From Butyrivibrio proteoclasticus (GTDB taxonomy: Bacteria > Bacillota > Clostridia > Lachnospirales > Lachnospiraceae), in contig NZ_FOXO01000017.1 of the NCBI RefSeq assembly GCF_900115735.1, forward strand, positions 1-64,000: a DNA stretch of 64,000 nt, read 5' to 3'. The translations under genes were made by a program, and so were the position numbers. Each line of letters begins with the position of its first letter. The stretch's first letter is position 1. Of the stretch, positions 29,316 through 47,121 are shown in pieces. The notes under the pieces are model-generated. The model did no database searches and was not told the DNA's origin. It was given only the letters and a program-made list of their open reading frames with translations.

Positions 29316-29616
29316 CTGCCTATATCAAGGAATTTGCGAATGGTGGCAGTTGATTTATTGGGTGGTATTCTGCCTATATCAAATGGATAGGAAATAGAGG
29401 CAGTTAATTTTACAGCAGTTGTTCTGCCTATATTGTAAAAGAGCGTTAGGGAGGCAGAAAGATATGGCTTAAATTCAATGCCTATATTTATGAAAAGTAA
29501 AATATAGGCAGAACCAGACATTAAAAAGCACTGCCTCTATTTAAGGAAAATAAATATAGGCAGAACCGGACATCTAAAATACACTGCCTATATTACAAGA
29601 AATAGAATAGTAGCAG
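29316..29616. repeat. Array of six CTGCCTATAT inverted-repeat units, period 53-54 bp
   Basis: CTGCC-type motifs start at 29316, 29370, 29424, 29478, 29531 and 29584; the complementary GGCAG-type motifs end at 29349, 29403, 29457, 29511, 29563 and 29616. Each pair spans 33-34 bp with about 20 bp between pairs. The arms are nearly constant while loops and spacers vary. The best unit pairs TGCCTATATTT with AAATATAGGCA. It occupies most of a 555-bp gene-free stretch (29200-29754); nothing else was recognised there. Confidence 0.8.
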
Positions 29617-29754
29617 AACAAAAGCTACAAGAAGGTTATATACGAAAATGTACCTCTAACTCCGTCCCCAAGAGACCACTTACTTACATGAAGACAGTAT
29701 TCCCAAGCTTGATGAACATCTTGAAAAAACATGAAATCAGATGGAGATTACAAT

Positions 29755-34590: not shown

Positions 34591-35039
34591 ATTTTTTGGT
34601 TAAGCACTTTAACGAACTCAGCACCACAGAGTTATACGAGATTTTAAAAACAAGATTTGAGATTTTTGTCACAGAGCAGGAATGCATCTATCAGGATCTT
34701 GATGATAAGGACCAGGACGCAATTCATGTTTTTTGCTGGAATGAAAACGGCAGAGTTGCAGGGTGTCTCAGAGTATTTTGGAAAGATCATGATGAGGCAG
34801 CAGGCGTAGCGCAGATTGGCAGAGTGGTAACGTTAGAGCACGGCAAAGGAATAGGCGGCCAGATGCTTCATGAGGGTGTCAGGATCGCAACAGAGCACTT
34901 TAAGGCAAAAAAGATCTATCTTGAAGCTCAGCAATATGCCATTGGATATTATGAAAAAGAGGGATTTGAGGTAGTATCAGAGCCCTTTATGGAGGACGGA
35001 ATTCCTCACGTGAAGATGGAGAGAATCAATGGGAAATGA
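34587..35039 (+). CDS. ElaA-like GNAT acetyltransferase
   Basis: A 150-residue GNAT protein of the ElaA group: LKTRFEIFVTEQECIYQDLDDKD at the start, IGRVVTLEHGKGIGGQML as the acetyl-CoA loop, and YYEKEGFEVVSEPFMEDGIPHVKM near the end. It overlaps the preceding frame (ATGA) and the next frame, which starts at 35029. The acceptor is unknown. Confidence 0.85.
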   Translation: MNFLVKHFNELSTTELYEILKTRFEIFVTEQECIYQDLDDKDQDAIHVFCWNENGRVAGCLRVFWKDHDEAAGVAQIGRVVTLEHGKGIGGQMLHEGVRIATEHFKAKKIYLEAQQYAIGYYEKEGFEVVSEPFMEDGIPHVKMERINGK

Positions 35040-35190
35040 AAACGGAACCTGGATCATGTATGGCGTGGAGTGGAACGCCCCCGAATGCCTGCATACAGTG
35101 CAGGATGCGATAAACTACATAAACGAGATAGGTTTTTTGCCACTTTTCAAGAATTGTATGTGCTACTTTATCCGTACAATGGAGCTGTAA
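35029..35190 (+). pseudogene. N-terminal fragment of an unidentified gene, interrupted by repeat array
   Basis: ATG at 35029 (overlapping the acetyltransferase end) opens a frame reading NGTWIMYGVEWNAPECLHTV and INEIGFLPLF, which looks like a conserved protein start. The first copy of the TTATCCGTAC motif (35168) lies inside it, and it stops at TAA 35188. The same frame is then open through the array to 35604, so a gene seems to have been split by the array. The family is not identified with confidence. Confidence 0.5.
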
Positions 35191-35477
35191 AAAGATCTAT
35201 TTCCAAGTGCTGTACGGATAGAAATGCTAATAAAGTGTCGTCTTATCCGTATAAACAGCCAGTATACACTGCTTTTCTCATATGAAATACGGATAAGATG
35301 GCGTGTGACGTGTAATCTTATCCGTATAAACGGCCAGCATACACTTCTTTTCTCATATAGAATACGGATAAGACAGCGTGCAACGTATAATCCTATCCGT
35401 ACAAGGAGAGAAAAAGGAGCCAGAGATAGCCATATTGTACGGATAAAAACAAAGAATTGCGCCGGACTTATCCGTAC
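35168..35477. repeat. Array A: TTATCCGTAC/GTACGGATAA inverted motifs, period 75 bp
   Basis: TTATCCGTAC-type motifs start at 35168, 35243, 35318, 35393 and 35468; GTACGGATAA-type motifs start at 35212, 35287, 35362 and 35437. Both series have a period of exactly 75 bp. From GTACGGATAA to the next TTATCCGTAC the gap is 21 nt each time, and the other gap is 34 nt. The inner units are similar in full, but the outer units share only the 10-bp motifs and the spacing. Two motif copies end in AT instead of AC. Confidence 0.9.
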
Positions 35478-35604
35478 ACTTGCTATGCTCGGCGTAGGAG
35501 TAGGAGCCTATAGCGACAGTGAACATGTGGCTGCGCTCAGAGAAGGCCTTGTAAAAGAGCTTGATGCCATAGCAAAGGCTGAAGGCATTGGAAGAAAAAA
35601 ATGA
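35478..35604 (+). pseudogene. C-terminal gene fragment following array A
   Basis: In the same frame as the fragment at 35029, the sequence after the last repeat reads LGVGVGAYSDSEHVAALREG and LVKELDAIAKAEGIGRKK before a TGA. It looks like the end of a folded protein. Because 75 bp equals 25 codons, the array keeps the frame open. Whether both fragments come from one gene is not shown. Confidence 0.4.
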
Positions 35605-35740
35605 TGGACTATTTGATTACCCAACCATCACCTAAAATTTTCAGGCGCTGGTACTTGCTTTTAATACTCTTTTAATAAATATGGTGTTTTTTCTAGGGTA
35701 TAATCAATATGTTGTTATTTTTTATACGAGGAGGAGAAAG

Positions 35741-36301
35741 ATGAGAAAAGTATCACTTTTATTAGTAGTATCAATTTGTGCCACATTAATAGGATGTGGA
35801 AAGACAGAAAACGCCGATGCCGGAGCTGCAACAGCAGTTTCTGTAGAAGCCATCGAAAGCGTTACAGAATCAGTGTCTGTGCCTGAAACTGATACAGCTT
35901 CAACCAGCTTTACTGAAGCATTAGCCGATGAAGGCACATATTGGATGAGCGGATATTTAAGAGCTTCAGATAAAGATAGCGCAGGAGAACCGGACGAATC
36001 CGGGGTTCTTCAGGCAATCATATATGAGGCATATATTGAAGATGATATTCTTACGGTAAAAGGCGTTACCAATTTTAGAAATGACAAAGCTCAGGATCCG
36101 GTAGGGATGAACGATGGAGATGAAGCAGCATTCATCATTACTGATCAAACAGTCTTCCAGATGGTCGGCGGTGAAGACGGCCCTGAGGACGTGACAAAAG
36201 AAGAGTTTGCACAGTACTTGAAAGACTGCGCAGATTCCGGTTTGCTTCTCGACATTCAAGTTAACGGCGCTCAAGTCGTTGTAGCCCAGATTTGTGCATA
36301 A
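35741..36301 (+). CDS. Lipoprotein of unknown function
   Basis: A 186-residue protein starting after a strong GAGGAGGAG site. The signal peptide ends in the lipobox LIGC, followed by a Ala/Thr/Glu-rich linker and an acidic domain (about 60-186) with no recognised family. A TATAAT hexamer at 35699-35704 may be its -10 box. It is monocistronic, closed by a palindromic terminator. Confidence 0.7.
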   Translation: MRKVSLLLVVSICATLIGCGKTENADAGAATAVSVEAIESVTESVSVPETDTASTSFTEALADEGTYWMSGYLRASDKDSAGEPDESGVLQAIIYEAYIEDDILTVKGVTNFRNDKAQDPVGMNDGDEAAFIITDQTVFQMVGGEDGPEDVTKEEFAQYLKDCADSGLLLDIQVNGAQVVVAQICA

Positions 36302-36333
36302 TATGAAGCTCTTTATATTTAAATAATGAATGG

Positions 36334-36359
36334 CCCGTATCATATGATACGGGTTTTTT
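36334..36359 (+). terminator. Palindromic terminator
   Basis: CCCGTATCAT and ATGATACGGG form an uninterrupted palindrome followed by TTTTTT. Confidence 0.8.
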
Positions 36360-36522
36360 ATTACGAATGCTTCCGCATTATACATGCCCAAAACAATTTC
36401 TATTGTGTTATGCTTTTCTACAGAACATGATACAGAACAATACCAGTGAGGATTTGGAAATGTTCAAGAAAATGTACAAAGTAACAGAGGTAAAAAAGGA
36501 ATACTAAAGAGGAAAAGAAAAG

Positions 36523-37206
36523 ATGAGTAAACTAAAAGTTTGCCTTAGGCATATTTCGGAAGTGTTTTTATATGAGTATTACTGTTTGGGAGATGATGAA
36601 TATGAGATATCCGATGAGGATACATTGACACCTCACAAGGAGAAGGCAAAAGAACAGTTGCTTGCAGGAAATTATTCCGGGGCCCAGCAGGAATGGCTTA
36701 GTGCACACCTTGAGAACCCTGTGGACATGGAAACAATCCTTGGAATTATCTTGTGTTGTAAGCAACTTGGAGATGCAGATGGTGAATATTCCTATACCAC
36801 AGAATCTTATAATTACTGCTGCACAAGGGCTGAGCTTGCAGCTTATTACAGAAACCTTGGATGGTATTACCTGGAAAAATACAAGCCGGAAGTATCTGCA
36901 GCATGTTATCTCTATAGCAAATATTTTGGCGAATCCCAACAGGCTGATGCTGAACTGGAATTCCTGGAGAAGGCTGTAGGTAAGAAAGTTGCCAAAAAAG
37001 ACCTGCCTCAGCTTCAGAAGATTCTTAAGGATAACAAAATTCCGACAGAGGCTAACCCTGTAACCCTTGCACTTTTGTACAAGGCAGCAGAGGAAGCTGC
37101 AGAAGGCAGAGACAAAGACCAGGCGCTTGATTGCTATAGAATGGTTTATGATCTTACTGCTGATAAAGAGATTGGAAAAAGAATTGAATCCCTTGAATCA
37201 AGGTAA
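36523..37206 (+). CDS. TPR-like helical repeat protein of unknown function
   Basis: A 227-residue, mostly helical protein with patterns like TPR units: KEQLLAGNYSGAQQEWLSAH, YYRNLGWYYLEKYKPEVSAA and AAEGRDKDQALDCYRMVYDL. There is no signal peptide or catalytic motif. It starts after AGAGGAAAAG. Likely a protein-binding scaffold; the partner is unknown. Confidence 0.6.
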   Translation: MSKLKVCLRHISEVFLYEYYCLGDDEYEISDEDTLTPHKEKAKEQLLAGNYSGAQQEWLSAHLENPVDMETILGIILCCKQLGDADGEYSYTTESYNYCCTRAELAAYYRNLGWYYLEKYKPEVSAACYLYSKYFGESQQADAELEFLEKAVGKKVAKKDLPQLQKILKDNKIPTEANPVTLALLYKAAEEAAEGRDKDQALDCYRMVYDLTADKEIGKRIESLESR

Positions 37207-37418
37207 GGACTAACAATCTCCCCTATCCCCACAACAATCAATTCAAAACATCCCCCCTATCCCCTGCCTCCCAATGTGTGGCATACAAATTTCCAATACA
37301 ACCAGACAGTTTATGAACCATGAATTACAGGTTGTGAACAACCTATTGTTACTGCCTTCAAAATCAGATAATGTTGGCCACAGGAAGTATTTTATGTATT
37401 TATGGAGGTATGTAAGAA

Positions 37419-40409
37419 ATGAGTAAACATTCCAAGTTATGGACTGGTTTGGCATCTGTCAGTACATGCTGTCTGGTACTGTCAAGCGTTGGATTTAACT
37501 GTATGTTGGGGTATTCGGGTACAGTTAATCAGGCTTTGGGGATTACTACCAGTAAGGTTGTAAATGATGGCGATACGTCAGAAGATACAACATATTTTGA
37601 AAGTGATTATGGCGAATTAAATTCTGAGAATCTTCAGACACTTATCCGGGAGACTTACGATGAGGCGGTTCAGGAAGAGGCAGAAGGAGCAGTTTTATTA
37701 AAAAATGATAATAACGCACTTCCACTTTCATCTGACGAAACAAAAGTAACTCTTTTTGGACACGCAGTTGCACAGCCTTTGTACAAGAGCGCATCTGCAG
37801 GTTCAAAGGCATATGATACATCAGAGGGTATTGACCTGTACACAGCCCTTTCTGAGCAGGGATTTGAAATCAATGACACACTTTATAATGCATATGTTCA
37901 GTCCTCAACAGAAAGAGGAACCGGCAAATATGACTTTTTAACTAATACTACAAGCGTATTGTCAATGGGTGAAGAAGACATCTCTTTTTATACAGATGAT
38001 CTTAAGGCTTCATTTGCAGATTACAGCGATGTTGCAATCGTAATGCTTGCAAGAGAAGGCGGAGAAGGAATGGAGCTGGCTCTCGAGGACAGCTTTGAAG
38101 GAATCAGCCAGTTAGCACTTCATCAGGAGGAAAAAGACCTTCTGAATATGATAAAAGAATCTGGCGTATTCAATAAGGTGATCGTGCTGATAAACAGTGG
38201 TAATCCCATGGAGCTTGAGTGGCTCGATGAATATGGAGTAGATGCATGTCTCTGGATCGGTGAGCCGGGTCAGAGAGGATTTGAAGCAGTTGCACAGATC
38301 CTTAGCGGCAGCATCAATCCATCAGGATCACTTACAGATACATATGCTGCTAATTCACTTTCAGCACCCGCAGTTGTAAACGGAAGTTTCAATAACCAGA
38401 CATGGGCTAATCTTGATGAAGTACTTGTAGCTATAGATGATGACGATGCCGGAATATCTTATTCAACAGTTCAGGCAGAAGGCATCTATGTTGGATATAA
38501 GTACTACGAGACAAGATATGAAGACAGCATCCTCGGACAGGGCAATGCAACTTCATCTGTCGGTTCATCTTTTGGAAAAGATTGGAACTATGCCGCAGAA
38601 GTTACATACCCATTTGGATATGGACTTTCATATACTACTTTTGAAAAGACACTTGATAGCGTAACAATAAATGGAGATGAAATAACAGTTAATGTAACTG
38701 TAAAAAATACAGGTGATGTCGCCGGGAAGACTTCTATACAGATATATGCTCAGACTCCTTACGGAGATTATGAGAAAAAGAATCTGGTAGAAAAATCTGC
38801 TATCCAGCTGCTCGATTTTGGAAAGACAGATACACTTGAACCGGGGCAGTCACAGACACTTAGCATTACTTGTGATAAGTACCTTCTTGCAAGCTACGAT
38901 TACACAAATGCAAAAGGATATATCATGAGTGAAGGCGATTATTATATCGCAATCGGTGATAATGCACATGACGCCCTCAATAACGTTCTTGCAGCAAAGG
39001 GAGCAGAGAAACTTACTGATGAAAACGGTCAGGAAGTAACAGGAAATGTATCTAATGTATACGCATGGAGCGAAGCATTAGATACAGAAACATATAAGAC
39101 TTCACAGTACACAGATGAAGTTGTTACAAATCAGTTCGAAGAAGCTGATCCTAACTACTGGCAGGACGGTACAGTTACTTACCTGTCAAGAAATGACTGG
39201 GAAGGAACATATCCAACATCTGCTACACAGCTGACACTTAACGATGAGATGATCGAGCTTCTTGCAGGTAATTATTATGAAAAGAGTGAAGATGCACTTT
39301 CTGTATCTGATTTCACTCAGGGCGAAAACGTAGGAATGCCACTTGCTGCACTTATTGGACTTGATTACGACGATGAGGCATGGGATACATATTTAAACCA
39401 GTTCACAATATCTGAGCTTACAAGCCTTCTGTCAGATAACTTTGGTACAACTGAGATTGCTTCAGTAGGTAAGCCGGCAATTGTTGCAGGTGATGGACCT
39501 GATGGTGTTGGCGGTACATATAACGAGAGCAAGTACGGAACAAGCGTGCAGGATACATGCTTCCCAACAGAGATAGTTCTTGCTTCTACATTTAATAAAG
39601 ACCTTATGTACAACAGAGGCAAGCTCATGGCCAATGAGTGCATGTATCTCGGAATGGAAGAAGACTGGATGCCTGGAATTAACATCCACAGAACACCATT
39701 TGGTGGCAGAAACTTTGAATATTATTCAGAAGATGCAGTTATGAGTTATCTCTGTGCTATTCCTGAAGTAGTTGCTATGGAAGAAAGAGGCGTTCAGGCC
39801 GGTGCCAAGCATGTAGTTGGTAATGATCAGGAAAATAACAGAGAAGGAATCGCAGTATTCTTTAACGAACAGGCATTTAGAGAGACATCTCTAAGAGCAG
39901 CAGAAGGAGCCATAGCAGCAGCCGGTGGAAAAGCTCTTATGCACGGCTTTAACAGACTTGGCCTTGTATGGTGCTCAGAGAGTACAGCACTTTGTAGCCA
40001 GGTAATCGAGAATGAATGGGGATTTGTCGGACAGCAGGAAACTGACGCTGTAGCAGGTGCCGAGGGTACATATAAGTGGCATCTTACAAGTGCAGTTGCA
40101 GCCGGTGTAGATCAGTTCTGTCTTGATTTCTCCGGTTCAGTTGGAACAGCTGTAGCAAAGCAGATCACAGACACTGATGATGGAGACCTTCTGGCACTTG
40201 TCAGAAAGTCAGCACATGATTATCTCTATACAGTTGCAAATAGCAGCGTTATGAACGGATACAGCGTTGATTCTAAAATCGTATCTGTAACACCTTGGTG
40301 GCAGCCACTTATGATAGTTCTTATCGTAGTATTTGCTGCACTTGACATTTTATTTATATTCATGGATCTGAAGAAACGCAGAACTGTAATTGAGATTGTT
40401 AAGGAATGA
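37419..40409 (+). CDS. Membrane-anchored GH3 glycoside hydrolase with inverted domain order
   Basis: A 996-residue GH3 enzyme in which the C-type domain comes first. After an N-terminal membrane helix (about 8-38), residues 75-330 hold the GH3 C-domain (GAVLLKNDNNALPL), then a fibronectin-III-like domain (YPFGYGLSYT, VTVKNTGDVAG). The TIM barrel is at about 640-920 with KHVVGNDQENNREG and the nucleophile Asp about 876 in EWGFVGQQETDAV. A second helix at the C-terminus is followed by KKRR. Such reversed GH3 proteins are known from rumen bacteria (BglA of Butyrivibrio). Two membrane anchors are unusual and imply action at the outer face. First gene of an operon running to 45722. Confidence 0.88.
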   Translation: MSKHSKLWTGLASVSTCCLVLSSVGFNCMLGYSGTVNQALGITTSKVVNDGDTSEDTTYFESDYGELNSENLQTLIRETYDEAVQEEAEGAVLLKNDNNALPLSSDETKVTLFGHAVAQPLYKSASAGSKAYDTSEGIDLYTALSEQGFEINDTLYNAYVQSSTERGTGKYDFLTNTTSVLSMGEEDISFYTDDLKASFADYSDVAIVMLAREGGEGMELALEDSFEGISQLALHQEEKDLLNMIKESGVFNKVIVLINSGNPMELEWLDEYGVDACLWIGEPGQRGFEAVAQILSGSINPSGSLTDTYAANSLSAPAVVNGSFNNQTWANLDEVLVAIDDDDAGISYSTVQAEGIYVGYKYYETRYEDSILGQGNATSSVGSSFGKDWNYAAEVTYPFGYGLSYTTFEKTLDSVTINGDEITVNVTVKNTGDVAGKTSIQIYAQTPYGDYEKKNLVEKSAIQLLDFGKTDTLEPGQSQTLSITCDKYLLASYDYTNAKGYIMSEGDYYIAIGDNAHDALNNVLAAKGAEKLTDENGQEVTGNVSNVYAWSEALDTETYKTSQYTDEVVTNQFEEADPNYWQDGTVTYLSRNDWEGTYPTSATQLTLNDEMIELLAGNYYEKSEDALSVSDFTQGENVGMPLAALIGLDYDDEAWDTYLNQFTISELTSLLSDNFGTTEIASVGKPAIVAGDGPDGVGGTYNESKYGTSVQDTCFPTEIVLASTFNKDLMYNRGKLMANECMYLGMEEDWMPGINIHRTPFGGRNFEYYSEDAVMSYLCAIPEVVAMEERGVQAGAKHVVGNDQENNREGIAVFFNEQAFRETSLRAAEGAIAAAGGKALMHGFNRLGLVWCSESTALCSQVIENEWGFVGQQETDAVAGAEGTYKWHLTSAVAAGVDQFCLDFSGSVGTAVAKQITDTDDGDLLALVRKSAHDYLYTVANSSVMNGYSVDSKIVSVTPWWQPLMIVLIVVFAALDILFIFMDLKKRRTVIEIVKE

Positions 40410-40420
40410 GGTGGACGAAT

Positions 40421-40816
40421 ATGAAGAACTTTTTAGCAAAAAAATCATATGGCTTTTGTGCCGTAGTGCTGGCGCTTATTGTTGCAGTTATATCACTTGT
40501 CAGATACCTGGCATGGGCTCCTGCTCATAATGCCACAAATGCGATGGTAGTGGCTGCACTTGTAATAGGAATTGTATTAAATGTTATTATAATGATAAAG
40601 GATGAGGACCTTCTCCTGGTAGCTGCAACAGCTTGCTATTCATTTGCGGTGTTCAGACACCTGGCTGATCAGGTCGGATCATTCGTAGATGCATTTCAGG
40701 GCATTAACATGTTCGGAGATGCCACACAGGTCGGAAACATAGTGTCTATAGCAATTGTTATGGGCATTGGAGTATTGCTTACAATTATTAGTGGATTTTT
40801 AAGAAGAGAAGTTTAA
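40421..40816 (+). CDS. Small four-helix membrane protein
   Basis: A 131-residue protein with four hydrophobic segments. The ATG at 40421 follows GAGGTGG, 11 bases after the GH3 stop, and two bases separate its end from the GH2 gene. No family is recognised. Position between two hydrolases suggests a role with the membrane-bound enzyme. Confidence 0.65.
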   Translation: MKNFLAKKSYGFCAVVLALIVAVISLVRYLAWAPAHNATNAMVVAALVIGIVLNVIIMIKDEDLLLVAATACYSFAVFRHLADQVGSFVDAFQGINMFGDATQVGNIVSIAIVMGIGVLLTIISGFLRREV

Positions 40817-40818
40817 TT

Positions 40819-43194
40819 ATGAAGAGAATATGCTTAAATGACAACTGGAAATGTTTTGTTACAGGGAAAAGAGATACCGCAATTGATGTAACTCTTCCTT
40901 ATGATGCGATGCTATTGGATGAAAAGGACGACGAAAGCGTCACTGGAGTAAATCTTGGATGGTATGTGCCACAGGATTACTCTTTTGAAAAGACTCTTTT
41001 GGCTCCAAAGGAATGGGCAGACCAGATCACAGTTCTGTATTTTGAAGGTGTCTATCACAAGGCAACTGTATATGTAAATGGCGTCAAAGCTGCTTATCAG
41101 GATTATGGTTACACCGGATTTTATGTGGATGTGACACAGCTTCTGAAATATGGTGAGGACAACACTATTCTTGTAGAAGCTATAAATACTGATCAGCCCA
41201 ATAGCAGATGGTATACAGGAACCGGTATCTACAGGCCTGTATGGCTATACCAGATGCCACAAAAGCATATTCTCATAAACGGAATTAAGGTTGATACCCT
41301 GTCAATAGATCCTCCAGTGATAAAGGTTGCGGTTAGTACAAACGCAGAAGGCCAGGTGACATGCGCTGTAGCAGAGCTTGATACGGTGGTAAAAGAAATA
41401 ACTAACGCTGATGGTGTAGCCGAGATTACCATGGAGCTTCCCAAAGCAGAACTTTGGAGCCCCGAAAATCCTAAGCTTTATGACCTTAAGGTAAGCTTTG
41501 GTGATGATGTCAGAACTGAGCGCATTGGTATCAGAACCCTTGAATTTAATGCTAAAAAAGGCTTTGCCATCAATGGAAAAAGAGTGATACTTCGAGGCGC
41601 ATGCATTCACCATGACAATGGTATCCTCGGAGCAGCCGGACATGAGTTCTCTGACTACAGAAAGATCAGACTCATGAAGGAAAATGGCTATAATGCAGTG
41701 CGTAGTGCTCACAATCCTTGCTCTGAGGCTATTCTTAGAGCATGCGATGAAATGGGCGTCCTGATGATGGATGAGTACGTCGATGCCTGGTATATCCACA
41801 AGACCAGATACGACTATGCAACCTCAGTTGAAAAGAACTACAAAACAGACTTAAAGGCCCTTGTAGATAAGGATTACAATCATCCGAGCGTTATCATGTA
41901 TTCAACCGGTAATGAAGTTGCAGAGACAGCTCAGGCAAAGGGTATCGAGCTTTGCGGCGATATGACTGACTACCTCCATGAACTTGATCCTTCAAGACCC
42001 GTATCATGTGGAATCAATATCTTTTTTAACTTCTTAAGTTCAATGGGACTTGGCATCTACTCTGATAAAAAGGCAGAGCAGGAAGTTAAGAATGTCAAAA
42101 AGAAGAAGGCAGTTGGCAGTGAATTCTTTAATAACCTTGCAGGGATACTTGGCGCAGATTTCATGAAGTTCGGAGCTACTCTGTATCCTTGCGACGTACT
42201 GACTAGAGACGCCTTTGCAAGAATGGATTTTGCAGGGTACAACTATGGAATCAACAGATATGTCCATGATCTAAAGAAATATCCTGACCGATTGATACTT
42301 GGAAGTGAGACATTTTGCAGCGATGCCTACAGGTTCATGGAGCTTGCTGCAGATGAGCCCAGGATAATAGGCGACTTCGTATGGTCAGGTATGGATTACC
42401 TGGGAGAAGTAGGTGTCGGAAGCTGGGAATATCAGGACTATGCACCGGATTTTAGCCACGGAAAAGGATGGGTTACAGCGGGTTCCGGAAGAGTTGATCT
42501 TACAGGTAAATCTCTTTCTGAAGCTGATTACACCCGCGTAGCCTTTGGACTAAAGGACATTGCAATAGGTGTTATCCCTGTAAAATATGCTGATCAAAAA
42601 CATTCTCCATCTGCATGGAAGATGACAAATGCCATGGCCAGCTGGTCATGGGAAGGATGCGAGAATAAGAAGACCAAGGTAGAGGTCTATGCCCGCGCAT
42701 ACGAGATAGAGCTTCTGTTAAACGGTAAAACTATCGGTAAAAAGAGACCCCAAAACGATTGCAGAGTAGTGTTTGATGTTACTTATATGCCGGGTGAACT
42801 TAAGGCTGTGGCATACGCTGAAAATGGTAAAGTAATTGCTACAACAGTTCTTTTAACTGCTGGGAAAAAGACTCAGTTAGTAGTAGAGCCGGAGCTTGCA
42901 GCAATAAATAGTGACGGCGATCTTGCTTATGTTCGACTTAAGTTTACAGATCAGTCAGGAGAGGTAAAGCCTCTTGAAAGAGATCACATTAAGGTCAGCG
43001 TAACCGGTGGAGAGCTCATTGGCCTTGGCAGCGCCTGCCCATATTATGAAGGCAGTTACCTGGATGATGTCTGCGACACATACTACGGTGAAGCACTGGC
43101 TGTAATAAGACCTGTAAGTAAAGGAAACATAGTGATAAATGCTACTTCACTTAATAAGAATCTGACAGCGTCGGCCACTGTAGAGGTAAGATGA
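40819..43194 (+). CDS. GH2 glycoside hydrolase (beta-galactosidase-like)
   Basis: A 791-residue GH2 enzyme: sugar-binding domain (LNDNWKCFVTG, TGIYRPVWLY), immunoglobulin-like domain, TIM barrel with RGACIHHDNG, acid/base Glu about 366 (STGNEVAETA) and nucleophile Glu about 497 (ILGSETF). C-terminal immunoglobulin-like domains (DUF4982 type) follow. There is no signal peptide, so it is cytoplasmic. Galactosidase, glucuronidase and mannosidase members share this layout, so specificity is open. Confidence 0.9.
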   Translation: MKRICLNDNWKCFVTGKRDTAIDVTLPYDAMLLDEKDDESVTGVNLGWYVPQDYSFEKTLLAPKEWADQITVLYFEGVYHKATVYVNGVKAAYQDYGYTGFYVDVTQLLKYGEDNTILVEAINTDQPNSRWYTGTGIYRPVWLYQMPQKHILINGIKVDTLSIDPPVIKVAVSTNAEGQVTCAVAELDTVVKEITNADGVAEITMELPKAELWSPENPKLYDLKVSFGDDVRTERIGIRTLEFNAKKGFAINGKRVILRGACIHHDNGILGAAGHEFSDYRKIRLMKENGYNAVRSAHNPCSEAILRACDEMGVLMMDEYVDAWYIHKTRYDYATSVEKNYKTDLKALVDKDYNHPSVIMYSTGNEVAETAQAKGIELCGDMTDYLHELDPSRPVSCGINIFFNFLSSMGLGIYSDKKAEQEVKNVKKKKAVGSEFFNNLAGILGADFMKFGATLYPCDVLTRDAFARMDFAGYNYGINRYVHDLKKYPDRLILGSETFCSDAYRFMELAADEPRIIGDFVWSGMDYLGEVGVGSWEYQDYAPDFSHGKGWVTAGSGRVDLTGKSLSEADYTRVAFGLKDIAIGVIPVKYADQKHSPSAWKMTNAMASWSWEGCENKKTKVEVYARAYEIELLLNGKTIGKKRPQNDCRVVFDVTYMPGELKAVAYAENGKVIATTVLLTAGKKTQLVVEPELAAINSDGDLAYVRLKFTDQSGEVKPLERDHIKVSVTGGELIGLGSACPYYEGSYLDDVCDTYYGEALAVIRPVSKGNIVINATSLNKNLTASATVEVR

Positions 43195-43724
43195 TGAATA
43201 GAGAAAAGATAAAGAAGTTACTATTTCAGTTTGTTAAGTTTTATCTCTTTTCTCTTTTGGTTACGCTGCTTCAGTATTTGCTTCTGACTTTTTTGCCCAC
43301 AGTAATTAATAACAACACAGATTGGTGTAGTGTACCTTGTCAGCTTTTTAGGGTAAAATTGGGTATAGTAGATACATATATATTTAATTATCCGGTAACC
43401 GGAGATGAAACTGGTGGAATGGGATATTTTGCAGCCTTTGCGATCACTTTGTTTATTGCACAGTGCGTAAATTTCCCAATGCAGAGAAATGTTACCTTTA
43501 AGTCTCATGGAAATGTTTGGTATCAGGCAATGTGGTATGTCATAGCATTTGTCGCAATAACGGTAGTGTGCAGCGTGCTGATGTCCATCTATGTTCCTGT
43601 TTGTAAGCAGTTCCTTGAGCCTGCCGTTTATAACATTCTCATAACTGTTATAAATGGTGGTGTGCAGATGGTGATATATTTCCCTGTTTATAAGATTATT
43701 TTTCCAGAGGTAGAACGTGATTAA
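43191..43724 (+). CDS. GtrA-like family membrane protein
   Basis: A 177-residue protein with four helices and the pattern NFPMQRNVTFKS, which matches the NxxxxRxxxF motif of GtrA proteins. GtrA-type proteins are linked to flipping of lipid-linked sugars. It overlaps the GH2 stop by 4 bp and the regulator start by 8 bp, so the operon is translationally coupled. Confidence 0.75.
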   Translation: MMNREKIKKLLFQFVKFYLFSLLVTLLQYLLLTFLPTVINNNTDWCSVPCQLFRVKLGIVDTYIFNYPVTGDETGGMGYFAAFAITLFIAQCVNFPMQRNVTFKSHGNVWYQAMWYVIAFVAITVVCSVLMSIYVPVCKQFLEPAVYNILITVINGGVQMVIYFPVYKIIFPEVERD

Positions 43725-44439
43725 AATCGCTGTTGTAGATGACGATCTTAATGAACAGCAAAAATTATCAGATATGTTCACAAGACTTGGTGGAGAGATA
43801 GGGATCGACCTGTCTGTCGTTACGTTCTCAGACAGGGAGTCTTTCCTGTCCGGGTACGATAAGAGCTATGCGATGCTCTGTCTCGACATTGAGCTTAATA
43901 CAGAAGATGATAGTGATAATGGAATTGAACTTGCCAAAAAGATAAGGCAGGTCGATTCTGATGTCATTATCATCTTTATTACTAATCTGGCTCAGATGGC
44001 TATCAAAGGCTATGAAGTCAGGGCTTTTGATTTCATAGTAAAACCTGTCAATTACGGTGATTTTGCCATGAAGATGAGGAACGCTCTTGGTTTTTATCAG
44101 GGGCACAGGTCAGAGAGCTTTAAAGTTCAGACAGAGCATGGCTTTGTCATGATCTCAAGTGACGATCTCTATTACATAGAGGTGAACGGTCACTATATTT
44201 ACTATCACACTACCAATCAGGTTTACAAACAAAAAGGCACGCTAAAAGAGATAGAGGTTAAGATATCAGAACTGCCCTTTAAGAGGTGTAACAACTGCTA
44301 TCTGATCAATCTTAAACATGTAAGCGGTGTCGATAAGGATGATGTAATTGTAGGCGGAGACAGACTTAAGATAAGCCGCCCCAAAAAGAGGGAGTTCTTG
44401 CAGGCAATTGCTGAATACATGGGAGGTAAGACTTTGTGA
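43717..44439 (+). CDS. LytTR response regulator (AgrA type)
   Basis: A 240-residue regulator starting at GTG behind AGAGGTAG. The receiver domain has VVDDDL, the phospho-Asp at about residue 57 (LCLDIEL) and FIVKPV. The LytTR domain (about 135-235) has DLYYIEVNGHYIYYHT and FKRCNNCYLINLKHV. It overlaps the kinase gene by 4 bp. AgrA-type regulators often respond to peptides, but no AgrB/AgrD is present in the window. Confidence 0.9.
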   Translation: MIKIAVVDDDLNEQQKLSDMFTRLGGEIGIDLSVVTFSDRESFLSGYDKSYAMLCLDIELNTEDDSDNGIELAKKIRQVDSDVIIIFITNLAQMAIKGYEVRAFDFIVKPVNYGDFAMKMRNALGFYQGHRSESFKVQTEHGFVMISSDDLYYIEVNGHYIYYHTTNQVYKQKGTLKEIEVKISELPFKRCNNCYLINLKHVSGVDKDDVIVGGDRLKISRPKKREFLQAIAEYMGGKTL

Positions 44440-45722
44440 ATACCATGTTTGAAATATGGGATCTAATTTCATATGCAGTACAGCTGATATTGTCCGGAAC
44501 TATAGTGATCATTTTTAGTCCCAGGAAAAAATACTGGGGACTGCGCTATGCTGTTTCAGCAGCTCTTTTCATTTTGGTATCTCTTTTTATGAATCATTTT
44601 TCCAGGAATATCATGGAGGTAATAGGCTTTGTGGGCTACTGGTCGCTGTATATTGCGGGGGTATTGTTCCAGATATTCTTGTGCACAGAGTACAACATGA
44701 GGCAGGTTCTGTACTACTCCATTGTAGCTCTTGCAGTGCAGCATGTTGCCTTTGATATATGCGAGATCTTTGATGCGATATTTGGCAGAATACAGGTAAT
44801 AGATATAGTTGTCTATATTCTTATCTATGGGATATTTGCCTTTGTTATCAAAAGAATCTTTGCCAAGATGGAAGCCAAGAGCTTTAAGCAGACAGATCTG
44901 GTACCAATCATAACGATCATGATGATCGTGCTATTTGTAAGTGTCATGTATAAAGGCAATACCTTTTATGATGTGGAATTCTCCTGGAATTATGTATATT
45001 ACAGGATTGTTGATGCTCTTTGCTGCGTATATATTCTGTGGACACAGGGTACAAGGCGGCTCAGCGAGTACTATGCAAGCGAGCTTGAGGGTATCAATAA
45101 GGCATTTATGATCCAAAAGGAGCAGTTCAAGATCAAGCAGGAGACCATCGACAGTATCAATAGAAAGTGCCATGATCTAAAGCATCAGATCGAGGCTATT
45201 CATCACATGGAGAAGGATAGCGACAGAGAGGCTTTCTATAAAGAGCTGAAGAAAGATATTATGATCTACGATGTGGCCATAGATACTGGTAACGAGGCCC
45301 TTAATGTCCTGATGATGGATAAGGGGCTGTACTGCTGCGAACATGATATACAGCTAAGCTGCATGGCCGACGCAGGATCACTCTCATTCATGAAACTCGA
45401 GGATGTCTATGCAATATTCGGAAATGCTCTGGATAACGCCATTACAGCGGTTGAGAAGATAAGTGATAAGGAAAAGAGAGTTATAAATCTGAAGGTCCTT
45501 AATCAGAACAACATGTTCATGCTGCAGCTTCAGAACTATTACAACGGAGTCCTGTCATTTGAAGATGGCATGCCCCTCACAACCAAGACAGACAAGACCC
45601 AGCACGGCTTTGGCGTCAAGAGCATCAGATATCTTGCCGAGAAGTACGGCGGCACTATGACAGTAAATGCCAAGGACGGCATATTTACCCTGCAGATATT
45701 GCTTCCAATAATGGAACAGTAG
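44436..45722 (+). CDS. GHKL sensor histidine kinase (AgrC type)
   Basis: A 428-residue membrane kinase starting at GTG, with six hydrophobic helices in the first 200 residues. A dimerisation helix follows with the phospho-acceptor His at about 246 in CHDLKHQIEA, then an ATPase domain with FGNALDNAITA and a glycine box HGFGVKSIRY. It lacks a periplasmic domain, as in AgrC-like peptide or membrane-state sensors. Last gene of the operon; array B follows. Confidence 0.9.
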   Translation: MNTMFEIWDLISYAVQLILSGTIVIIFSPRKKYWGLRYAVSAALFILVSLFMNHFSRNIMEVIGFVGYWSLYIAGVLFQIFLCTEYNMRQVLYYSIVALAVQHVAFDICEIFDAIFGRIQVIDIVVYILIYGIFAFVIKRIFAKMEAKSFKQTDLVPIITIMMIVLFVSVMYKGNTFYDVEFSWNYVYYRIVDALCCVYILWTQGTRRLSEYYASELEGINKAFMIQKEQFKIKQETIDSINRKCHDLKHQIEAIHHMEKDSDREAFYKELKKDIMIYDVAIDTGNEALNVLMMDKGLYCCEHDIQLSCMADAGSLSFMKLEDVYAIFGNALDNAITAVEKISDKEKRVINLKVLNQNNMFMLQLQNYYNGVLSFEDGMPLTTKTDKTQHGFGVKSIRYLAEKYGGTMTVNAKDGIFTLQILLPIMEQ

Positions 45723-45795
45723 GGGATGTTAAAAGAGATGTTTTTTGGGGAGATTCTAGGAGTGAGATTCGGTTCGGGAGTGAGATTCCAGCGGC

Positions 45796-46146
45796 GTACG
45801 GATAAGAACAGTCCTAGAACATGATTTTATCCGTACAATCCCCAGGAAAAAGATCTGTTTTAGGAGTGAGATTCCAGCGACGTACGGATAAGATCAGTCC
45901 TAGAACATGATTTTATCCGTACATTCCCAAAGAAAAGAGCTGTTTTAGGAGTGATATTCCGGCGACGTACGGATAAGATTAGTCCTAGAACATGATTTTA
46001 TCCGTACATTTCCCAGGAAAAGAGCTGTTATAGGAGTGATATTCTAGCGACGTACGGATAAGATTAGTCCTAGAACATGATTTTATCCGTACACTCCCCA
46101 GAAAAAGAGCTGTTTTAGGAGTGATATTCTGGCGACGTACGGATAA
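45796..46146. repeat. Array B: GTACGGATAA/TTATCCGTAC inverted motifs, period 85 bp
   Basis: GTACGGATAA starts at 45796, 45882, 45967, 46052 and 46137; TTATCCGTAC starts at 45827, 45913, 45998 and 46083. The period is 85-86 bp and the gap inside each pair is always 21 nt, as in array A. The pairing can be extended by ATCA/TGAT inside the loop. Here the whole unit is well conserved (GTCCTAGAACATGATT, CTGTTTTAGGAGTGA). It fills most of the 511-bp stretch between the AgrC-type kinase and the J-domain gene. Confidence 0.92.
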
Positions 46147-46233: not shown

Positions 46234-47121
46234 ATGACACTTAAGGAAGCTTACAAGATCCTCGGCGCCTCTAAACATGACGACGACCGGGAGATAAAAG
46301 CCAAATACAAAAAGCTTCTTATCCTGTACCATCCGGATTCTGATCCGACCAGGAAAAGAAATCCTGAGGATGATGATAAGATCAGGCAGGTCATTGAAGC
46401 TTATAAAAAGATCAAGGAGTCTGAAGGAGAGCCCTACTTCGACACTTATGAGTTTACCTGGGATGCCTTTGAGAACAAGGCTGCATTCTCTGAGAGGAAC
46501 ATCTACGTTCAGTTCAAGATGTATGATGAGGAGCTGCCACTTTCCAAGATGGCCAGAGGGAGGTTTGTCTGGGATCCTGATATGGAAGAGTTCAAGCTCT
46601 TTTCCAAGAGCGTTCTGGAAGCCTGCAAGGATATCATGACAGACTATAGCGCAAGGCTCACACCTGATAAGGTAAAAGACATCTTTCATTTCATGATGCA
46701 GGAGTATGTCCTTCCTGCTGATGCAGCCAGAAAGATTGGCAATAAGGTCCGTGAGGATAGAGACACAGAGGTATTCACCTTCAATGGATTTGTAAAAGAA
46801 AATCCTGCAGATCCGAAAGCTTCTGCACCAACTATAGGGGAGCCTTTGAACATTTTTCTTCGAGAAGACAGGGCAGTTGTTGAAGAAATTGTGACAGGTA
46901 AGGTGCTTGGATCAGTATCTTTTGATGAGGATGAGCTTTACTACGTGGTCCTTCCACTTCTGGAAGATCCCAAAGTGCAGACCCATGCTTCGATTACTAA
47001 AGTTGAAAAGAGCCGCAGATTTGGTAATCGGATGAATGTAGTGATAGAGCTGATGATACCAAAGGACCTTAAGGATGTAGCTGTCTCAAACGAAAGGCAG
47101 ATCAAAAGAAGGATAGGTTAA
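46234..47121 (+). CDS. J-domain protein
   Basis: A 295-residue protein with an N-terminal J domain (1-70): MTLKEAYKILGASKHDDDRE and the HPD motif in YHPDSDP, which stimulates Hsp70 ATPase in known members. The remaining 220 residues are not the DnaJ zinc or client-binding domains and are unassigned. The ribosome site is weak. It probably recruits DnaK to a specific client. Confidence 0.8.
   Translation: MTLKEAYKILGASKHDDDREIKAKYKKLLILYHPDSDPTRKRNPEDDDKIRQVIEAYKKIKESEGEPYFDTYEFTWDAFENKAAFSERNIYVQFKMYDEELPLSKMARGRFVWDPDMEEFKLFSKSVLEACKDIMTDYSARLTPDKVKDIFHFMMQEYVLPADAARKIGNKVREDRDTEVFTFNGFVKENPADPKASAPTIGEPLNIFLREDRAVVEEIVTGKVLGSVSFDEDELYYVVLPLLEDPKVQTHASITKVEKSRRFGNRMNVVIELMIPKDLKDVAVSNERQIKRRIG

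Follow-up and report, generated by a model that had tools for sequence, protein, structure and literature searches.

The DNA examined here is a 64,000-nucleotide window of the Butyrivibrio proteoclasticus genome (the whole of positions 1 to 64,000 of contig NZ_FOXO01000017.1), which contains three arrays of short inverted words. Arrays A and B share an arm core, TACGGATAA, and a fixed 21-nt gap between paired arms; the third array is built from another word. We propose, with a probability of about 0.6, that all three are dispersed orphans of a two-part system in which a nuclease-like protein binds the array beside its own gene cooperatively, for autoregulation or tethering, and binds the orphans in trans. 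The features of the window are given below. G000 denotes the genome of the window, C numbers denote contigs and L numbers denote fetched loci.

35168 to 35477, no strand: array A, nine alternating inverted arms with core TACGGATAA, spacing 44/31, period 75; orphan copy.
45796 to 46146, no strand: array B, nine alternating inverted arms, spacing 31/54-55, period 85-86; orphan copy.
29316 to 29592, no strand: third array, arms CTGCCTATA/TATAGGCAG, period about 53-54, left half degenerate; orphan copy.
35029 to 35154, plus strand: truncated gene left of array A, a 5′ fragment of an unnamed 259-aa gene that is intact in AE2015 (L044:8289-9068).
44436 to 45722, plus strand: GHKL histidine kinase gene left of array B, followed in AE2015 by a single arm and then by other genes.
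46234 to 47121, plus strand: DnaJ-domain gene right of array B; in Su6 the B array fuses into the interior of this gene (window about 46635).

The arrays and their words

The inverted arms with a fixed 21-nt gap are a real feature of both A and B. The exact pattern GTACGGATAA-N21-TTATCCGTAC matches five times in the window and never in 100 shuffles, once in array A (35437-35477) and four times in array B (45796, 45882, 45967 and 46052). The other A units (35212, 35287 and 35362) have mismatched arms and still keep the 21-nt gap, so the eight occurrences counted in the initial annotation hold only when mismatches are allowed, five of the eight units being exact. Arms with at most one mismatch number 18 in arrays A and B, against 2.0 expected across the whole window. 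The four units per array, the periods of 75 and 85 and the invariant gap described earlier were all borne out, with a single B period of 86. Paired arms lie 31 bp apart in both arrays, start to start, and the linker that separates a second arm from the first arm of the following pair measures 34 nt in A and 44 nt (45 once) in B, one helical turn longer.

The motif is neither confined to these two arrays nor variable in its gap, either of which the initial annotation had named as counting against its idea of a conserved pair of sites. Six arrays with the TACGGATAA arm are present in the genome of the window: A, B, C34:170093, C43:164032, C45:62836 and C45:168249 (first-arm positions), the last interrupted by an assembly gap. 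Five of them are unlinked and one is linked to a nuclease-like gene. When exact pairs were sought in 79 genomes of the genus with the gap left free between 6 and 36 nt, all 36 had a gap of 21; they came from six of the genomes. The outer linker across the genus is 34 nt in period-75 arrays, 44-45 nt in B-type arrays and 42 nt once. Fillers differ between A and B, as first noted, but those of other arrays in the genome are clearly related, the related ones being the end units of C43, C45a and, in reverse, A.

Outside the genus the motif is rare. A scan of GTDB genome contigs returned 18 stretches, 15 of them from Butyrivibrio or Lachnospiraceae; the other three, one unit each from Shewanella, Fibrobacter and Gracilibacillus, are by our estimate roughly as many as would be expected by chance. 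Four out-of-genus matches were first judged to be chance, and two of these (G234 and G084) proved to be part of real arrays. A phage origin was rejected, as an exact core pair (two 9-mer arms with a gap of 21) is absent from the IMG/VR viral contigs. A transposon bounded by the two single units of L006 was rejected too, the genes between them being ordinary.

Arrays of this architecture are built from further words as well. In the fetched loci, a scan for alternating inverted words revealed arrays with GTAGGATAA, TGCGGATAA, ATGACCTA and CTACGTGA, and the same scan gave no match in 2.38 Mb of Markov-random sequence. The word GTAGGATAA forms 17 pairs in the genome of the window and is also present in G008, G054 and G067; TGCGGATAA arrays were found in another genus. 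The third array of the window, which overlaps a tandem repeat detected at 29479-29619, has the word CTGCCTATA of the array upstream of the nuclease-like gene at G000:C41:123576. Two further orphan words of this genome likewise match those of linked genes, TACGGATAA at C45:168885-169715 and GTAGGATAA at C34:160077. Since nuclease-linked arrays at other loci of this genome use the words of A, B and the third array, we interpret these three as orphan copies. No matching gene was found in the loci examined for the orphan words CTACGTGA (G038) and ATGACCTA (G067). The initial annotation's picture of the window thus stands for arrays A and B, and lacked the third array, the other arm words and the linked nuclease family.

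Another dispersed repeat, of about 320 bp, turned up when the flank of array C45a was used to look for an empty site, of which none was found. It lies at L004:5073-5397, with copies at G000:C62:39230 and G000:C75:33255 and in G067, G008 and G052 (76-78% identity). It contains the shorter words TGGGCATATA and TTACCACATCCAT in palindromic order and, among the genomes searched, occurs only in those that also have TACGGATAA arrays. A TPP riboswitch and a skipping-rope RNA lie near two orphan arrays (L001:2871-2975 and L003:8201-8280).

Linkage to a family of nuclease-like genes

A gene of about 277 aa adjoins arrays of two different words. A search with it in seven genomes gave 37 matches, fragments counted. 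Five genomes from the genus had 7, 7, 4, 4 and 8 of them, and the two from other genera had 6 and 1. Linkage was scored as at least five alternating arms within 700 bp upstream, near-palindromic words being left out by the scanner. An upstream array was present at 16 of the first 30 loci, compared with 0/29 downstream and 0/90 in shuffles; with 42 more loci the counts became 36/70 upstream, 6/70 downstream and 0/210 in shuffles. These 72 loci include near-identical orthologues; at many of those that lack sufficient upstream DNA, the gene is close to a contig end. Upstream linkage is 32/66 without the four lead loci known beforehand and 34/64 without six near-identical orthologues. As a control, only 2 of 41 open reading frames of at least 150 aa in the window have an upstream array, and these two arrays are A and B themselves (Fisher p 2.4e-7). 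Nine loci from a last search (900 bp, same scanner) gave 5/9 upstream, 3/9 downstream and 0/27 in shuffles; one of the three downstream arrays repeats the upstream word.

Array words differ from gene to gene, also between paralogues. Proteins about 50% identical carry related words (TACGGATAA, TGCGGATAA and GTAGGATAA), and across the family the likeness of the arms correlates positively with protein identity (rho 0.19, n = 33, reached by 9/2000 permutations; rho 0.17, n = 31, reached by 5/2000). The last arm lies 21 bp before the start codon in L137, and the array ends 21-31 bp before it in L137, L166, L168 and L178. Promoter and terminator scans around three arrays gave values at most slightly above shuffles. 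Arrays of one word are found on both sides of the gene in 4/41 cases. These loci, L200 (G258), L203 (G003), L169 (G151) and L171 (G121), resemble a mobile element with array ends.

A link to some neighbour other than the nuclease-like gene was rejected. The only other recurrent neighbour is a tRNA-synthetase-like gene, at 7/81 loci (six upstream), the rest forming small clusters. It adjoins the nuclease-like gene in several genera, upstream in L114, L115, L116, L117, L154 and L199 and downstream in L122. In Su6 a 21-bp tandem repeat, GGATGATGGGACCAGATGAAA, lies between an array and its nuclease-like gene (L039:9161-9226).

The linked family comprises Lachnospiraceae proteins of about 265 aa, with an N-terminal coiled coil and a C-terminal domain of the PD-(D/E)XK nuclease type. 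In 29 members the motifs RSKxE, a Y-x-YE-type motif, PDF and EHxG are invariant, as are E175, P205-D206 and E221-H222, which make up the acidic motif E...PD...E-x-H/K of PD-(D/E)XK enzymes. The proteins belong to no Pfam family, and in a scan of the 29 at E≤0.1 neither Y1_Tnp nor Nop was among the families listed; NCBIfam gave a single, chance-level match. PADLOC models of the candidate defence family PDC-S68 match the C-terminal ~120 aa in 8/8 proteins scanned (best model E 6e-21 to 1e-28). The likeness to PDC-S68/S69 is to the C-terminal domain of PDC-S68; these models are mostly about 1200 aa long, in contrast to the ~265 aa with coiled coil and array found here.

An AlphaFold model (mean pLDDT 88, pTM 0.60) predicts a PD-(D/E)XK core fold for the C-terminal domain. 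Its best structural matches are TnsA (Z 8.6, rmsd 3.3 over 114), the homing endonuclease I-Bth0305I (Z 8.4, rmsd 2.5 over 88), Bax1 (Z 8.1) and VSR (Z 7.2), and no ToxN/AbiQ-type fold appears among the matches listed. The long N-terminal helices match many coiled coils, including TasH (Z 8.4). Among 60 Lachnospiraceae genomes, each series of matches taken at E≤1e-12 and the genomes drawn from different genera, 20 have full-length members (own genome included) and one more has the domain only. A phylum-wide search (E≤1e-30) found full-length members in 4/299 genomes, all Lachnospiraceae, plus two longer proteins with the domain.

Helical spacing, arm conservation and junctions

The initial annotation had left a choice between a protein reading paired sites some three helical turns apart and a conserved hairpin. 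Mean unit lengths (periods) of 40 arrays, with orthologous duplicates dropped, fall at 51.5-54, 61-64, 72-75.4, 84.6-86, 107 and 114, and none falls at 56-60, 66-71 or 76-83. The best common step is 10.70 bp (R 0.826, n = 40), and none of 20,000 uniform null sets was as strong. The same null result was obtained for a strict set (n = 29, R 0.889), which omits the near-palindromic words of L170, L184 and L185-downstream that the larger set includes, and for one array per protein cluster at <45% identity (n = 22, R 0.864) or <40% identity (n = 14, R 0.865). Among five later arrays, four fit the classes (51.6, 53.0, 63.7 and 74.4) and the fifth and weakest, at 83.3, lies 1.3 below the 84.6-86 class.

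Arms behave as conserved sequence rather than as conserved pairing. Across 66 distinct units the core barely varies and the variable outer position is paired at 0.56, against 0.58 expected, hence without covariation. Neighbouring arms in 41 arrays do not vary jointly either (F-arm pairing 0.43 vs 0.454 shuffled; R-arm 0.44 vs 0.448). Helical quantisation together with the lack of compensatory arm pairing favours a protein on double-stranded DNA over RNA hairpins, so that of the two earlier alternatives the protein, at steps of about 10.7 bp, is the more likely. Rfam gave no match in the window and none on arrays at seven other loci. No such array-nuclease system appeared among the open-licence papers listed in the searches, which agrees with the initial annotation's statement that it knew of no described family with this motif. 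A word particular to each gene, recurring at whole helical turns, points to an undescribed protein-DNA system.

Orphan array B keeps its arms. Compared between the window genome and Su6, its arm cores differ at 0/81 positions and its filler at 33/269 (p 1.4e-4). Three rearrangement junctions fall at arms. At the B locus of AE2015, exactly one arm follows the histidine kinase gene, and then unrelated genes; in Su6 the B array joins the interior of the DnaJ gene directly after an arm. The third belongs to a natural deletion in AE2015 (L116, G008:C38:19548), which took away the cognate array together with some 59 codons from the start of the nuclease-like gene; its junction falls in GAAGTAC, common to the arm region and the gene, and the orphan arrays of this genome remain in place. 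Such arm-located junctions are compatible with recombination or with cutting at arms, and prove neither. Insertion of array A into the truncated gene at its left was rejected; that gene lies at a rearranged junction with no clean insertion.

What may read the arrays

The likeliest reader of the arrays is the linked nuclease-like protein. It would bind every arm on one face of double-stranded DNA, a dimer probably spanning the inverted arms, and would form a cooperative filament there. At its own gene the filament may cover the leader or promoter, as arrays end 21-31 bp before the start codon in several loci, and may thereby repress or tether the nuclease. Orphan arrays would be additional binding sites, born by array copying or recombination. 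Cutting at arms may drive the copying, in a manner like that of REPIN/RAYT systems but with a different enzyme.

Several observations weigh against this proposal. The scanner found no upstream array at 34/70 loci, including L127, L133 and L186, three of the seven in the window's own genome. Downstream arrays occur at 6/70 loci, four of which lack an upstream array, so the 5′ position is not universal. The correlation between arm and protein similarity is weak. Arm conservation in orphan C43 (1/72 core differences against 13/193 in filler, p 0.12) is not significant. At the inner gap positions 15/27 and 16/26 the partners agree more frequently than expected if they were independent, and in L101 one GTAGGATAA unit carries joint changes in its two arms; either finding is compatible with a weak extended palindrome or a hairpin. 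Foldseek gave no PDB match at E≤0.001 (best PDB E 5.7e-3). Neither a clean empty site nor a target duplication came to light, which leaves the mobility of the arrays as something we only infer.

The main rival, partly compatible with the cooperative-binding proposal, is that the arrays are spread by the nuclease: a selfish REPIN-like element, cut at its arms, whose orphans are non-autonomous copies without host function. This is possible, and distinctly less probable in our judgement. The five unlinked arrays that share their word with one linked array, the arrays of one word flanking a gene, the three junctions at arms and the predicted likeness to TnsA and homing endonucleases are what such an element might leave behind. 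Against it, an empty site with target duplication is missing, the junctions could arise by ordinary repeat-repeat recombination, and orphans C43, C45a and B must be old because they occupy the same locus in different strains. The kept arms and drifting filler of B would also require selection or conversion.

Two known repeat classes are among the closest to the present arrays. REPIN/RAYT systems pair REP doublets with a Y1 transposase gene (PMC3116915). As here, a genome holds several family members, and each has intergenic inverted repeats of its own that cluster near the gene and are also dispersed elsewhere; repeat and protein differ together; in the genome of the window such clustering and dispersal is seen for TACGGATAA, GTAGGATAA and CTGCCTATA. 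RAYT is described there as a Y1 (HUH) transposase and the REP unit as palindromic, in contrast to the PD-(D/E)XK-like coiled-coil protein, the arms TACGGATAA, GTGACCGC and TACTGTAA, which are not self-palindromic and form no hairpins alone, and the regular helix-quantised arrays upstream of the gene. Neisserial NIME arrays carry dRS3 (ATTCCC-N8-GGGAAT), for which a phage integrase is named (PMC3898611). They too are intergenic, with short inverted arms, varied filler and a position at recombination junctions; their arm and gap are different, and the portion of the account available to us describes neither a linked nuclease gene nor unit phasing.

Alternatively, the arrays could be operators or nucleoprotein sites of another DNA-binding protein, the nuclease-like gene being often nearby, or making use of the arrays, without encoding their reader. 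That the nuclease binds them is itself a prediction from sequence, arrays also stand alone, and half of the nuclease-like genes have no detected array. We nevertheless consider this unlikely, since words differ among paralogues yet are common to same-genome orphans, the same word can lie on both sides of one gene, and the tRNA-synthetase-like gene is the only other recurrent neighbour family.

An RNA system, in which hairpins of the transcribed array would either act upon the nuclease in the manner of type III toxin-antitoxin systems or serve as guides like those of TIGR-Tas, is improbable. It would fit the array directly 5′ of a nuclease-like gene, the inverted-repeat hairpin possible in every unit, the alignment of the coiled coil with TasH and the partial symmetry at positions 15/27 and 16/26. 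It leaves helical quantisation without a reason, and arm covariation is absent. TIGR-Tas loci have tandem palindromic units beside a coiled-coil protein gene, sometimes with a nuclease domain (PMC12045711). The present arrays share the palindromic tandem units adjoining a coiled-coil protein gene; they differ in having constant rather than variable arms, no covariation, no Nop-domain Pfam match in the 29 proteins, no Rfam match and, in 0/41 arrays, a box-C-like TGATGA at ≥0.8 per unit on either strand. The likeness to type III toxin-antitoxin loci lies in the array directly 5′ of the nuclease-like gene in about half of the loci. Such loci (ToxIN) have tandem repeats directly 5′ of a nuclease-type toxin gene, and the present system differs from them in showing no sign of RNA structure, in its DNA-helix spacing, in its orphans elsewhere and in its PD-(D/E)XK-like fold. 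Clusters of DnaA boxes that titrate DnaA are known and TTATCCGTA agrees with the box consensus TTATCCACA at 7/9 bases, but this identity was rejected and can practically be set aside, as the own dnaA locus has canonical TTATCCACA boxes and no TTATCCGTA within one mismatch, and the other array words are unlike the box.

Beyond cooperative binding by the linked nuclease, a wider and more tentative proposal is that each nuclease holds its own address word in a helically phased upstream array, is held there, and multiplies the array genome-wide. Several orthogonal pairs per genome would then diverge together, either as selfish homing arrays or as tethered machinery for genome defence or rearrangement. 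Such a system would be the counterpart, read by protein, of the known repeat-array systems.

If the protein does read its array, these loci would provide a large collection of natural nuclease-family proteins, each matched to a DNA word of 7-10 bp. Several orthogonal protein-word pairs per genome would exist in common gut and rumen bacteria, and the system would account for a class of dispersed repeats in Lachnospiraceae as a new case of repeat-enzyme co-evolution. It would also offer a testable model of cooperative face-of-helix DNA binding that carries a nuclease.

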